From a virus, in the IMG/VR virus record IMGVR_UViG_3300038549_000029, positions 1-42,352 of that record: 42,352 bases of DNA; one strand, given 5' to 3'. The notes beneath the pieces are model-generated. The model was not told where the DNA came from, did no database searches, and saw only the letters and a program-made list of their open reading frames with translations. Both the position numbers and the translations under genes were made by a program. Shown one piece after another: positions 33,429-38,627 of this stretch (position 1 is the stretch's first letter; every line of letters begins with the position of its first letter).

Positions 33429-34916
33429 ATGGCACACCAGGGCGGTAAAGACTTCGAGCCAGGCATCATCGACAGAGTAAGTGGCGCTGTTTCATGGCTT
33501 GTGACTGGCAAAGTCCCGGCATGGTTCGGCCCCAATCAGCCATTGGCACCTGTGGCGCCCAAGGAAGTGGAAGGTCGGGCATTCGACTATCCCGTAGGCG
33601 TCAACCTCAACTACATGCCCAGGTCTGAACAGTCGGAATCCGGAGTCAGCTTTGCCACCCTGCGAGCAATAGCCGATCCTGCCCTAGGTGGTCTCGATCT
33701 GGTGCGCCTGGCAGTAGAGACGCGCAAAGACCAGATGGAAGCCCAGAGGTGGACAATCCGTGGATTGGACGGTAAGGATGCAGGCGACCGTGGCAAGAAG
33801 GCTATGGGACTCTTTCGCAGGCCTGATGGCGTCCACACATTCCGGCAATGGGCAAGGCAGCTCTGGGAAGACCTGCTGGTCATCGACGCGCCATCGGTCT
33901 ACATTGACCGTGGCATGCCTGAGATCATCGACGGTGGCAGCATAAAGCTGCTTTCCGATCCAAACGGCAGGCGCCCTATCCCACCACTCCCTGCCTTCCA
34001 ACATGTGCTCAAAGGGATGCCAGCGGTCGACTACACCGCTGATCAGTTGATCTACTTCCCACGTAACCTACGCAGTAATAAGTTTTATGGCATGAGCCCG
34101 GTTGAGCAGTTGATTAACATCATCCAACTGGCCCTCAAGCGGCAGCTCAGCTTGACAGCGGTCTACACTGCCGGGAATGTTCCTGAACACCTCATTGGTG
34201 TGCCTGAGAGCTGGAATCCAAAGCAAATTGAATTGGCCCAGCAATACATGGACGCGCTAATGCAGGGCAACATCGAGGCCAAGCGTAAAGCCCTGTTCGT
34301 TCCTGGCGGGATGCAGCCGATCAAACTGGGTGACCCAACCATGCATGAAGGCTTTGACGAATGGCTTGCCCGCTTGATCTGCTGGTGTTTCTCGATCCCA
34401 CCCACTGCGCTCGTGAGACAGGTAAACCGGGCTACCGCAGAGACTGCCCAGATCCAGGCGCAGCAAGAAGGCCTCGAACCGCTCAAGGAGTGGTGGAAGG
34501 ACTTCATGAACGAGATCTTGGTCAAGTGCTACGGAATAACGGATCTCGAATTCGGGTGGCTTGATGCTGAGATTGTCAACCCACAGATCAAAGTCCAGAC
34601 CGCATCCATGGCGTGCGGCGGGTCAGCGTTTATGACCAAGGATGAGGTAAGGACGACGTTCTACGGGCTTGATCCACTCACACCGGAGCAAAAGGAAGAG
34701 TTGGCGCCTAAGCCTGTCGATCCATTTGGTGGGATGTTTGGTGTGGGTCAAGAGCAACCCAAGAAAGACGGGGAGGACATTCCAAAGGAAGAACCGGAAG
34801 AGAAGATAGCCAAGCGGAGGTTACTTCAAGCCGATCAACCGGAACGGAAAGGCTGCACGTGTGGCAATTGCCAAAATACAAGCAGCAAGCAAAAAATACC
34901 TAGGCAGTATCCGTGA
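33429..34916 (+). CDS. Portal protein
   Basis: The 495-residue protein starts at ATG 33429 (GAGG upstream). Typical portal segments are FATLRAIADPALGGLDLVRLAVETRKDQM, RQWARQLWEDLLVIDAPSVYIDR, LIYFPRNLRSNKFYGMSPVEQLI and CWCFSIPPTALV followed by AETAQIQAQQEGLEPL (all quoted in part). It forms the dodecameric ring for DNA entry. The C-terminus is charged and ends CTCGNCQNTSS. The next gene (MuF-like) begins 56 bp inside it. Confidence 0.9.
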   Translation: MAHQGGKDFEPGIIDRVSGAVSWLVTGKVPAWFGPNQPLAPVAPKEVEGRAFDYPVGVNLNYMPRSEQSESGVSFATLRAIADPALGGLDLVRLAVETRKDQMEAQRWTIRGLDGKDAGDRGKKAMGLFRRPDGVHTFRQWARQLWEDLLVIDAPSVYIDRGMPEIIDGGSIKLLSDPNGRRPIPPLPAFQHVLKGMPAVDYTADQLIYFPRNLRSNKFYGMSPVEQLINIIQLALKRQLSLTAVYTAGNVPEHLIGVPESWNPKQIELAQQYMDALMQGNIEAKRKALFVPGGMQPIKLGDPTMHEGFDEWLARLICWCFSIPPTALVRQVNRATAETAQIQAQQEGLEPLKEWWKDFMNEILVKCYGITDLEFGWLDAEIVNPQIKVQTASMACGGSAFMTKDEVRTTFYGLDPLTPEQKEELAPKPVDPFGGMFGVGQEQPKKDGEDIPKEEPEEKIAKRRLLQADQPERKGCTCGNCQNTSSKQKIPRQYP

Positions 34917-36363
34917 CCACCTTCTGAGCTCAGTCGAGAAGGCAGACACGCCAGATTACAGCAGGCTCGTTGAACTTCTTGCCCAGTTGCCAGAGGAAGA
35001 ACGTAGGCAGTATTTGCAGGCGATAGAGGATGCAATCTCAACCATGGCAGAATTCGGGGTAGAGGCTGCGTTAAAACAGATTGAGAATCTATTACCATCC
35101 GGCTCAGATCCATTCAAGCAAGCCAACGAGGAGGCTATTGCCTGGGCAGAGGAAAGATCTGCCTGGCTGGTGACGAAGATAGATGAAACCACCAGAGAGA
35201 ACATCCAGACGCTGGTAGAAAATGCCGAGAAGGATGGATTATCGAACCAAGAATTGGCCCAACAACTCAGGGATTCTGAGGCCTTCTCTGATGCCAGGGC
35301 CGAGATGATAGCCAGAACTGAGACGGCCATGGCCGATGTGCAGGGTAACCTTGCAGGGTGGAAGGCAAGTGGGGTTGTGGAGGGCAAGCAATTCCTGGCA
35401 GCGCCAGATTGCTGCGACGAGTGCCAGGCCATGGCGGATGTTGTAGTAGGGCTGGACGAAGAATTCCCAGAGGGAGACCCCCCCATCCATCCTAACTGCT
35501 TCCTACCAGGAACTTTGGTATCTACCGTTGGTTGGGTTTCGTCTGTCTTTGAACGTTGGTATGAAGGGGAAATCGTTCGCATTCGAATCGAGGGAAATCC
35601 AGACATCACCTGCACGCCCAATCACCCGATATTGACGCAGCGCGGATGGATTCCCGCCGCACAACTCACAGAACGCGACTACCTGTTCAAGGTGTCTAGG
35701 GAAATGTTTAGTTCCGTTAATCCAGAGAATAATCACGTTAACGCCTTGATTGAGGAGGTATCTAATACGATCTCCATGTCTGGCCGCGTGTCTACCACCC
35801 GCATGCCATCCTCCACCGAAGATTTCCACGGCGATGGAACCATTGATCAGGAAATCAACATTGTAAGGGCCGACAGCGGCTTGAGGGCGGATACCAGAAA
35901 ACACGGAGGAAAGCATACCAAAGAAGGCAACTTCTTGATCACTGATTCCGATTTGGAGGCCTTCGCGCGAGAGTGTAATTGCGCTCCTATGAGTTTGGGA
36001 TTGTCTGGAACCACGAACTGCAGCATGAGCTGCTTTGACACGAGCAAGCCTAGCTTCAGGAGTGGACCTGGCAGCTTCTGCGATATGCGCGGCGGAACTA
36101 TCTCGGATATGAAGCCCGAAACGATTAAATGTCTTGCGGATGGTGGAGCTATGGCAACCAAGGCTCTTAGCAATGTCAACACTGCTCTCTCCAGCCTCAT
36201 AACGACGGTAAATATCAAGGAGTTGATCGTCGGTGAACAATTTTCTGGACATGTCTATAACCTCGAAACGGAGGGTGGGTGGTATGCAGCCAATGATATT
36301 ATAGCACACAACTGTCGATGTGACGTGATCGCAGTTATTAAAGAACAGGAGGGTGAAGAATGA
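34861..36363 (+). CDS. MuF / SPP1 gp7-like head protein interrupted by an intein
   Basis: The GTG start at 34861 overlaps the portal end. The 500-residue precursor has a helical N part (residues 1-212; LVENAEKDGLSNQELAQQLRD and SDARAEMIARTETAMADVQGNLAGW typical of the MuF family, quoted in part), the Cys pair CCDECQAM and the family ending DPPIHPN|CRCDV, which is split by a 272-residue intein (213-484). After splicing the mature protein would be 228 residues. MuF-like proteins attach to the portal and are packaged or assist head morphogenesis. The stop overlaps the next gene by ATGA. Confidence 0.88.
   Translation: MAIAKIQAASKKYLGSIRDHLLSSVEKADTPDYSRLVELLAQLPEEERRQYLQAIEDAISTMAEFGVEAALKQIENLLPSGSDPFKQANEEAIAWAEERSAWLVTKIDETTRENIQTLVENAEKDGLSNQELAQQLRDSEAFSDARAEMIARTETAMADVQGNLAGWKASGVVEGKQFLAAPDCCDECQAMADVVVGLDEEFPEGDPPIHPNCFLPGTLVSTVGWVSSVFERWYEGEIVRIRIEGNPDITCTPNHPILTQRGWIPAAQLTERDYLFKVSREMFSSVNPENNHVNALIEEVSNTISMSGRVSTTRMPSSTEDFHGDGTIDQEINIVRADSGLRADTRKHGGKHTKEGNFLITDSDLEAFARECNCAPMSLGLSGTTNCSMSCFDTSKPSFRSGPGSFCDMRGGTISDMKPETIKCLADGGAMATKALSNVNTALSSLITTVNIKELIVGEQFSGHVYNLETEGGWYAANDIIAHNCRCDVIAVIKEQEGEE
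35503..36252 (-). CDS. Antisense homing endonuclease nested in intein 2 (HTH plus Vsr-like)
   Basis: The 249-residue ORF runs opposite to the intein and is wholly contained in it. ATG 36252 has GAGGT seven bases upstream and an extended -10 (TGCTATAAT) 46 bases upstream. Residues about 5-46 form an HTH (DIYRRYEAGESSVDIAKSLG, CHSSTIRKTFNRFGL). Residues about 103-180 give a Vsr/EDxHD-like nuclease core: QEVAFF (E107), YNVDFLING (D133), SIAVEIFGGGWH (E143, H150), RHGDRIRYLLNQG (D161) and VNVIILWIN. Vsr-type homing endonucleases with an N-terminal HTH are known beside fractured/split inteins, which fits. The open frame extends to 36309 without a better start. Expression is not shown. Confidence 0.78.
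   Translation of the reverse strand: MSRKLFTDDQLLDIYRRYEAGESSVDIAKSLGCHSSTIRKTFNRFGLHIRDSSAAHIAEAARSTPEARLARVKAAHAAVRGSRQSQTHRSAITLSREGLQIGISDQEVAFFGMLSSVFSGIRPQAAVGPYNVDFLINGSIAVEIFGGGWHAGGRHAARHGDRIRYLLNQGVNVIILWINGTKHFPRHLEQVVAFCELCGGNPSALRQYRVIGRAGDVWISLDSNANDFPFIPTFKDRRNPTNGRYQSSW
36298..36306 (-). promoter_or_regulatory. Extended -10 promoter for the antisense endonuclease
   Basis: Minus strand: TGC (36306-36304) then TATAAT (36303-36298). It lies within the codons of intein block G (D-I-I-A). The predicted start near 36291 gives a leader of about 40 nt with the Shine-Dalgarno site before ATG 36252. No good -35 box. Confidence 0.55.
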
Positions 36364-36563: not shown

Positions 36564-36784
36564 TGCGCTGGCGTGTGGCATACGTCAAGGTAAAGAGCGC
36601 ACTAACCAAGCTGCGCCGAAAGTGGATACGTGATAGACTTGGCAGGAAGTTTTTGCGCAGGACGAAACGGATGGTGTGGAAAGTGCCCATCGTAGCAATC
36701 CACTGGGTGAAATGGCGCATTAAGAGACACGAACGGGAAACCAGATACAAGCGTGAGCGCAGGCGGATGTATGGACCTCGGTAG
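36563..36784 (+). CDS. Extremely basic small protein (73 aa)
   Basis: Starts in a TAATG overlap at 36563. About 40% of residues are Arg or Lys (for example LTKLRRKWIRDRLGRKFLRR and KRHERETRYKRERRRMYG), with Trp scattered. It lies between MuF and fibre genes. It may bind nucleic acid or the acidic scaffold; no family is recognised. Confidence 0.55.
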   Translation: MRWRVAYVKVKSALTKLRRKWIRDRLGRKFLRRTKRMVWKVPIVAIHWVKWRIKRHERETRYKRERRRMYGPR

Positions 36785-38627
36785 GCTGATTGCCCTAATA
36801 CGTGTCTTTGGCTACAAAGGAGCCCAAGGGCCTCCAGGGCCACAAGGGCCTGCCGGTGCAGACGGCGAAGACGCAACCATGGAAGTTGGGACAGTCACCA
36901 AGATCGCGCCCGGCGGCGTCCCAACTGTGGACAACTCCGGAACAGAGATTCACGCAATTTGGGACTTCGGGCTTGTGACCGGGGACACCGGGGCTCAGGG
37001 CCTAAAAGGTGATCAAGGCGATAAGGGTGATCAAGGTGATCCTGGACCGCAGGGCCTTCAGGGCGATAAAGGGGACAAAGGAGACCAGGGCGACAAAGGC
37101 GATACTGGCGACAAAGGAGACCAGGGCGACCCTGGCCCGCAAGGTCTGAAAGGCGACAAGGGTGATCAAGGCGATCAAGGGCCACAAGGATTAAAGGGTG
37201 ACAAAGGGGACACTGGTGATCAAGGAATCCAAGGCATCCCTGGTCCTGCGCCATCAGGCACAGCCAACCAGGTATTAGCGACACCAGACGGAACCGATGG
37301 TGTTTCTTCTTTGCGGTCATTGGTCAAGTCAGATCTTCCGTCTTTGTCATCGTCAGATTTGTCGGACGGGCCATGTGTGCCATATCCATACTCTGTTGCC
37401 ACCTATACCAGCGCAGATTGGACTGGCGGGAATGTGACATATGTGCCTCTGTCTGGGAATCTTCAGACCTATATCGACAATGCATCGGCTGGCGACACAT
37501 TAATCCTAGCCGCTGGAACATATACCAGGAATCGTTTAGCCATAGATAAGGCCATCAACATCGTCGGGCAAGGCCGGAAGGACACTGTTGTTAATGTAGT
37601 TGTCACATTGGACACTCCACGTGGAGCATTCGAGTTTTCCGCTAGCGATATCCACATCAGAAGCCTGTCGATGATTTGTGACGACTTGTTTATTGATGAC
37701 CCCTGCTTTTTGACCGTTTCACCAAACTTAACTGGTCTAATTGTAGAGGATGTATATATAAGGGCGAAGTGCAACGACGCTGGCAGCCCTGCCGTCGAGG
37801 TTTTAAACTCAGACCTTGACATGATCGATTGTGAAATTTATAGCGGGATACTAAACGCCATATCTGCGTGGCCGATTGGAGTGAAGGCCTATAACGATAG
37901 CAGCGCGTCCACAAACAACGTCGTAAATCTATACAATTGTAAAATTACAGTAGAATCGCCACTTGGCTGGCTCGGTGGAGCCCACGGGGTGGAGTGCTAC
38001 GGCGGTAGCTCGTCCAAAACCATGACAGTCAATCTGTATGGCAGCTCTGTTATCGCAACTGCTGATTCATTGTGTGTTGGCCTATTTAACTACGGAGGAG
38101 CCAGGTCAATAATCAATGCGTATCATTGTGACATAAATGCGGTTACATATGATGTTTATTGTGGTGCATCTGGCGTTGTGAACCTTTATGATACAGTGTT
38201 GGTAAACAATACTGTCAATGGGACTGTGACATACAGGGCCGCTGTTAATGCTGGGTTGGGTATATTCAGCACATCAATAAACACCCCTAGAATAGCCAAT
38301 TTAACAACCAATGGTTTAATCGAAACCACTGGAGGGAACGGGACACTTGGGGTAAGGACAACTGTTTATCAGACAGCGTATGCAATCCTATCTGCACTTG
38401 GTGAATTGGCGGACGATGCCGGGTATCTCGAAAACGATGGCGCGGGAAACCTATCATGGGGTTCGTCGCCTGGCGGTGACGATAATTGGAATCAAACCGA
38501 GTATATACTGACAAAGGACCGGACGATAGAGGCCGGTAAATGTGTTATCATTGTTGGGCCGCTGCAGACGAACGGAAATACGCTGACGACAGAGAGTGGT
38601 GGTATCCTTTACACATTGAGAGGGTGA
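36771..38627 (+). CDS. Collagen-like / beta-helix fibre protein
   Basis: ATG 36771 is chosen within the end of the previous gene; the Shine-Dalgarno site is weak (GGCGG). The 618-residue protein has collagen-like Gly-X-Y runs (residues about 17-31 and 74-165: GPPGPQGPAG, GDKGDQGDPGPQGLQ). It then has DLPSLSSSDLSD, and residues about 215-510 are a right-handed beta-helix (LQTYIDNASAGDTLILAAGTY as entry, repeating IxVxN rungs). The end is an Ig-like segment. The collagen stalk would trimerise and the helix would bind or cut a polysaccharide. Confidence 0.8.
   Translation: MDLGRLIALIRVFGYKGAQGPPGPQGPAGADGEDATMEVGTVTKIAPGGVPTVDNSGTEIHAIWDFGLVTGDTGAQGLKGDQGDKGDQGDPGPQGLQGDKGDKGDQGDKGDTGDKGDQGDPGPQGLKGDKGDQGDQGPQGLKGDKGDTGDQGIQGIPGPAPSGTANQVLATPDGTDGVSSLRSLVKSDLPSLSSSDLSDGPCVPYPYSVATYTSADWTGGNVTYVPLSGNLQTYIDNASAGDTLILAAGTYTRNRLAIDKAINIVGQGRKDTVVNVVVTLDTPRGAFEFSASDIHIRSLSMICDDLFIDDPCFLTVSPNLTGLIVEDVYIRAKCNDAGSPAVEVLNSDLDMIDCEIYSGILNAISAWPIGVKAYNDSSASTNNVVNLYNCKITVESPLGWLGGAHGVECYGGSSSKTMTVNLYGSSVIATADSLCVGLFNYGGARSIINAYHCDINAVTYDVYCGASGVVNLYDTVLVNNTVNGTVTYRAAVNAGLGIFSTSINTPRIANLTTNGLIETTGGNGTLGVRTTVYQTAYAILSALGELADDAGYLENDGAGNLSWGSSPGGDDNWNQTEYILTKDRTIEAGKCVIIVGPLQTNGNTLTTESGGILYTLRG

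Follow-up and report, generated by a model that had tools for sequence, protein, structure and literature searches.

A probable homing endonuclease gene lying codon on codon opposite a phage head-protein intein, with a core that appears to be constrained on both strands

The head gene, its intein and the opposite reading frame

The window, by which we mean the whole 42,352-nt stretch of DNA analysed here, comes from a tailed-phage record. A gene for a Mu F-like minor head protein comes after the portal gene and is interrupted by an in-frame intein, and a second gene runs through the intein on the minus strand. The features are listed below, with the residues of the antisense protein numbered from the ATG at 36252.

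33429-34916: portal gene (PF04860 match)
34861-36363, plus strand: Mu F-like minor head protein gene with the in-frame intein inside (500-aa precursor; GTG start uncertain)
35497-36312, plus strand: intein of 272 aa, Cys1 to Asn272, inserted at HPN/CRC (at the slash) of the MuF domain
35614-35637, plus strand: intein block B, TPNHPILT, invariant or nearly so among relatives
35818-35838, plus strand: EDFHGDG, intein residues 108-114, opposite antisense SIAVEIF (139-145), by direct reading
35824-35835: apparently dual-coded core of 12 bases, sense FHGD and antisense V/I-A-V-E, proposed from codon null tests in both directions and from the survival of FHGD where the antisense gene is dead
36250-36264, plus strand: intein block F, HVYNL, by direct reading, facing the antisense start codon and its Shine-Dalgarno-like sequence
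36307-36312, plus strand: C-terminal His-Asn of the intein
35503-36252, minus strand: antisense gene of 249 aa with a helix-turn-helix (HTH) and a Vsr-like nuclease, a probable homing endonuclease
36260-36264, minus strand: Shine-Dalgarno-like GAGGT ahead of the ATG at 36252, by direct reading
36103-36240, minus strand: predicted HTH, residues 5-50 (PF13936/PF13384 matches; GcrA DNA-binding domain, Z 7.3)
35653-35952, minus strand: predicted nuclease domain, residues 101-200 (Vsr 1cw0, Z 11.7; I-Bth0305I 3r3p, Z 10.4)
35854-35856, minus strand: codon of Asp133 in YN-x-D, invariant in alignment A3
35824-35826, minus strand: codon of Glu143, opposite intein Phe110, invariant in 144/144 non-redundant relatives
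35803-35805, minus strand: codon of His150 in GGGWH, invariant in alignment A3

The product of the head gene matches Pfam Phage_Mu_F (2e-11) and PHROG head protein (1e-51), as well as intein regions. The intein scores 25.7 bits with TIGR01445, above the cut-off of 24.5, and 33.7 with Pfam Intein_splicing, slightly under the cut-off of 35.8. Its model has the Hint fold, with the Mtu RecA intein (2in0) as the best match (Z 12.8, rmsd 1.7, 107 aligned), and the hallmarks of a Cys1/Asn-type intein are present, namely Cys1, the TxNH of block B and a C-terminal His-Asn followed by Cys. An Asp and a His in block F are common among inteins, but not universal. Block F of the present family mostly reads VYNL, not VYDL, and the usual combination of Asp and His is lacking, with a block F His in just 6 of the 128 relatives that have a findable block F. 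An endonuclease domain is absent from the sense strand of the intein, and sense residues 135-206 and 211-219, which lie opposite the HTH side of the antisense gene, are predicted to be disordered (pLDDT <50).

In most relatives the insertion lies at HPN/CRC or near it. When the extein parts of one intein carrier are joined, a Salmonella phage with an uninterrupted HPN/CRS matches them at 98.5% identity, and the flanks of an intein carrier, once joined, align with the empty Salmonella site without gaps (99/120 bases). The exact empty sites in near-identical Salmonella phages indicate that the intein is mobile. In some Salmonella phages the intein-containing head protein is annotated as an NAD+--asparagine ADP-ribosyltransferase (L064), which is probably a misannotation. 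Elsewhere in the window, the ORF at 36753-38627 contains long runs of collagen-like Gly-X-Y repeats (GPQGP, GDKGD) and is likely to encode a tail fibre.

Coding status and relatives of the antisense gene

The antisense ORF is in exact codon register with the intein; its start falls within block F and its end faces the N-terminal splicing blocks. The placement of its start codon and Shine-Dalgarno-like sequence opposite the conserved block F, seen at 36250-36264 of the window, recurs in many related loci, and a sequence resembling GGAGGTTRTAAACATG lies opposite block F across many relatives. The AlphaFold model of the antisense protein has a mean pLDDT of 90.4, and its top Foldseek match is 3r3p (E 0.047). 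A profile comparison with I-Bth0305I gave an E value of 0.12, which is not significant, and REase_MTES_1575 (PF18741) reached 13.7 bits on the antisense protein of the window, below the curated cut-off of 38.2. The same family matched 31 of 39 antisense relatives at E <=0.01, the best at 1.4e-8. As well as the residues listed above, E107 is nearly invariant in alignment A3. The antisense proteins of phages Aaphi23 and Rctr197k (L421 and L422) apparently carry a pair of HTH units ahead of the nuclease, and the profile match to that of Rctr197k starts only at position 89.

The earlier note on this DNA, made from the sequence alone, had suggested that the antisense gene would be widespread, and this is borne out by relatives of about 24-46% identity in 48 IMG/VR contigs and 47 phage records. 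The genes opposite them are mostly annotated as head morphogenesis or minor capsid proteins, or as hypothetical. Both frames were open in codon-on-codon register in all relatives fetched first; 48/48 contigs have a codon-register sense ORF of at least about 300 codons, and the other two reverse frames are mostly short. Some of these relatives were found partly via EIFGGGWH, so the set is biased toward that motif. Loci were also collected by sense-anchored scans, each limited to the 80 loci most similar to the query. A block B search, blind to the other strand, gave the best 80 and then 75 more loci, including some contigs already seen, and an antisense profile match was present in 155/155 loci listed by these first two scans. 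The set of about 101 non-redundant sense-anchored loci agrees with the EIFGGGWH-biased set, and in it 2 antisense stops were seen against 287.6 expected from extein codon usage. In the bacterial phylum of a Micromonospora locus, 6 of 396 matches were full length; the antisense family matched in all 5 full-length loci fetched from that phylum and in none of 25 Hint-N-only matches. Of the phage records examined, that of PK2 alone annotates the antisense ORF, as a hypothetical protein. The annotations of two Salmonella phages, PK2 and vB_StyS-sam, place a second hypothetical protein on the minus strand inside the same gene, in another frame (L057:1644-2045 and L058:1644-2045).

Antisense ORFs in frame -1 are frequent in GC-rich genomes, and a search for a sigma-70-like promoter near the antisense gene found none, as might fit a GC-driven artefact without a product. 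However, the ORF is also open at low GC: in ten loci of 33-45% GC, 133 antisense stops were expected and 0 were seen. Domain homology, a high-confidence predicted fold and purifying selection on the antisense strand likewise speak against an artefact, to which we give practically no credence and which we have rejected. On these sequence and model data we take the antisense ORF to be a genuine gene. Considering the pattern of presence and absence of the intein and the lack of an endonuclease domain on the sense strand, we suggest that its product is probably the homing endonuclease.

Constraint on the two strands

The sense codons at 35818-35838 read gaa gat ttc cac ggc gat gga (EDFHGDG), and the reverse complement reads tcc atc gcc gtg gaa atc ttc (SIAVEIF). 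Direct reading thus confirms the earlier observations that EDFHGDG lies exactly opposite antisense residues 139-145, codon on codon, and that the TTC of Phe110 faces the GAA of Glu143. A check of whether the opposite frame always reads hydrophobic-V-E in relatives, as had been proposed, found hydrophobic-V/I/M-E in 144/144 non-redundant relatives. The recurrence of the register in relatives, the deficit of antisense stops and the matches to the HTH and REase_MTES_1575 families argue that the overlap is not due to chance.

Substitutions were compared in 11 independent close pairs. Over antisense residues 14-195, 148 changes were silent on the antisense strand and altered the sense protein, compared with 42 of the reverse kind; opposite the Hint-N splicing blocks the corresponding numbers were 6 and 19 (Fisher 1.8e-7 for the contrast). 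The column entropies show the same switch between strands. Both results suggest that the nuclease gene determines the central part of the intein and that splicing determines the two ends.

It had been proposed that the conservation of EDFHGDG is the shadow of the antisense active-site strand, and a codon-level comparison of substitutions had been suggested as a check. The check favours antisense-silent changes over the linker, and the proposal stands for most of the linker and for the leading 'ED', which appears in relatives as VD, MN, PD, PY, EQ, EH, EA, GD or FN and largely behaves as a shadow of the antisense gene. It does not stand for F-H-G-D, the conservation of which exceeds what the antisense protein alone would impose. 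A null model with only the antisense protein held predicts, for the 144 relatives, 27.5 His compared with 137 seen (z +24.9), 57.5 Gly compared with 133 (z +13.1), 71.6 Asp compared with 136 (z +11.0) and 67.9 Phe compared with 133 (z +10.9). The converse null, with only the sense protein held, fails as well, the antisense Ala (z +12.1), Val (z +8.3) and Glu (z +8.2) being conserved far above chance.

If the motif had no role in the intein and were conserved only through the need of the nuclease for VAVE(I/V), the invariance of Glu143, the free variation of the sense E and D with antisense F145 and I144, the tracking of the antisense strand by the remaining linker and the few loci that lose HGD yet keep the nuclease would all be accounted for. 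However, the antisense wobble bases would not be expected to be frozen, and those of V140, A141 and V142 have an entropy of only 0-0.28 bits, compared with mostly 1.5-2 bits at other conserved four-fold codons. Nor would FHGD be expected to persist opposite a dead nuclease, and it does so in two loci, L267 and L350, which hold it despite a broken opposite frame and a lost catalytic region and so supply the refuting case for this explanation. We consider it very improbable and have rejected it.

These two loci belong to a group of mini-inteins obtained from two further sense-anchored scans, in which the antisense gene is lost by degrees and FHGD or FHSD is retained (L267, L275, L329, L335 and L350). 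In L329 and L335 part of the region between the HTH and the nuclease is missing. L275 has lost the HTH and contains stops, and keeps the nuclease half and DFHSD. In L267 and L350 the HTH, the YN-D strand and GGGWH are lost and stops are present. The antisense strand of L350 reads PVAVKLC, with two stops and no HTH, and its Phe codon is TTT, a change that is silent for the intein and turns Glu into Lys for the nuclease; that of L267 reads AVAVERP, with stops. The residual antisense profile match in both lies only opposite block B, where the sense strand constrains the sequence. They are the only two clearly dead antisense lineages found, both mini-inteins on metagenomic contigs, and a search with the L350 mini-intein as the query found no more mini-inteins.

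The constraint on the sense side might also act on DNA or RNA, as a binding site or regulatory element TTCCACGGCGAY, and not on the intein protein. The nucleotides TTCCACGGCGA are nearly fixed in the 144 relatives, and the flanking sense residues are mostly unconstrained, both of which would suit such a motif. However, the variants that occur fit the sense codons (GAC/GAT, CAC/CAT, GGN at Gly114, TTT in L350 and Asp to Glu), and the bases left free coincide exactly with the sense wobble positions, which is not expected of a nucleotide motif. The change from CAC to CAT leaves His unchanged and turns the antisense Val into Met. Position 114 is Gly or Ala in 126/144 relatives, and its own wobble base is free: opposite antisense residue 139 the Gly codon is GGG, GGA, GGT or GGC, and the antisense residue is Pro, Ser, Thr or Ala, which places the constraint on the sense amino acid. 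The free wobble at Gly114 and the CAT, GAT and TTT variants thus disfavour a motif at the DNA level, which we regard as unlikely. We suggest instead, from the codon patterns, that the FHGD stretch is dual-coded and selected on both strands, as VAVE for the nuclease and as FHGD(G) for the intein.

FHGD is not strictly essential, since it is lost in L003 (DLDRQG) and L231 (DLDAYI) with the antisense active site intact. We hypothesize that it helps splicing or folding, either by supplying a His and an Asp or by holding the linker against the Hint core. An Asp in block F occurs in 5 of 13 relatives that have lost HGD and in 13 of 112 that have kept it (Fisher 0.022, with relatedness ignored). A link between the loss of HGD and the return of the block F Asp is suggestive only; it would fit a role of FHGD as the source of His and Asp. 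Antisense co-variation could have misled the AlphaFold model of the intein in its placement of FHGD, for which the pLDDT is only moderate (about 70-77).

Proposed arrangement and comparison with known systems

We are highly confident that the locus carries a mobile MuF intein with a homing endonuclease gene codon on codon on its antisense strand, and that the FHGD core is constrained on both strands. The intein would occupy the conserved HPN/CRC site of phage Mu F-like head proteins, and the strand opposite it would encode the homing endonuclease, with an HTH and a nuclease of predicted Vsr/I-Bth0305I-like fold that may cut empty HPN/CRC alleles. On the sense strand, the central part of the intein would be mostly filler fixed by the nuclease gene. 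The exception would be F-H-G-D-(G/A), four to five residues opposite the catalytic strand V-A-V-E, in which the same codons would provide Glu143 and its neighbours for the nuclease and His-Gly-Asp for the intein. FHGD may aid splicing or folding of the intein, perhaps by giving the His and Asp usually missing from block F. It is also likely that this arrangement characterizes widespread phage homing inteins, with the endonuclease codon on codon antisense and four codons giving both VAVE and an FHGD that the intein needs.

If so, a large family of phage inteins that seem to be free of an endonuclease has the nuclease gene on the other strand, where annotation has overlooked it in every cultured-phage record examined except one. 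The family would also offer a rare natural case in which the selection exerted by each of two proteins on shared codons can be told apart at the level of single bases, and in which intermediates of decay exist.

Mobile inteins are usually described with the homing endonuclease as an in-frame domain, or with the endonuclease lost. The large LAGLIDADG and HNH inteins resemble the present element in being mobile and in combining a Hint splicing domain with an endonuclease, but theirs is fused on the sense strand, whereas here it would be a separate antisense gene. In the open-access full-text literature we found no report of an antisense or opposite-strand endonuclease gene in an intein. The capsid morphogenesis protein of Escherichia phage Snoke and Salmonella phage LSPA1 has been described with an intein that some relatives have and K1ind2 lacks (PMC6776784). 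It belongs to the same family as the intein of the window, but the antisense gene is not mentioned in that paper and is unannotated in the Snoke record.

For the nuclease, the EDxHD homing endonucleases, including I-Bth0305I, have been reviewed (PMC3943268). The likeness to I-Bth0305I lies in the predicted catalytic fold, an HTH-type DNA-binding region and the association with a phage mobile element; I-Bth0305I differs in being intron-encoded, the similarity to it reaches only the E value given above, and the invariant Glu of the antisense protein is on the third strand. The Vsr mismatch endonuclease and DUF559/REase_MTES_1575 share the fold, the former with the Z score listed above, and the profile matches in relatives are weak to moderate, but the antisense gene has no mismatch-repair context and another domain layout.

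The nearest precedent is the ShiLan-domain insertion in phage methylases, which hides an out-of-frame HNH endonuclease (PMC11855218). In both cases a phage gene contains an in-frame insertion without stops on which a homing-type endonuclease is overprinted, and the distribution of the insertion is patchy. However, the ShiLan gene lies on the same strand in another frame, encodes an HNH enzyme and is without a splicing domain, whereas the present element combines the opposite strand and exact codon register with a Vsr-like nuclease and an intein insertion.
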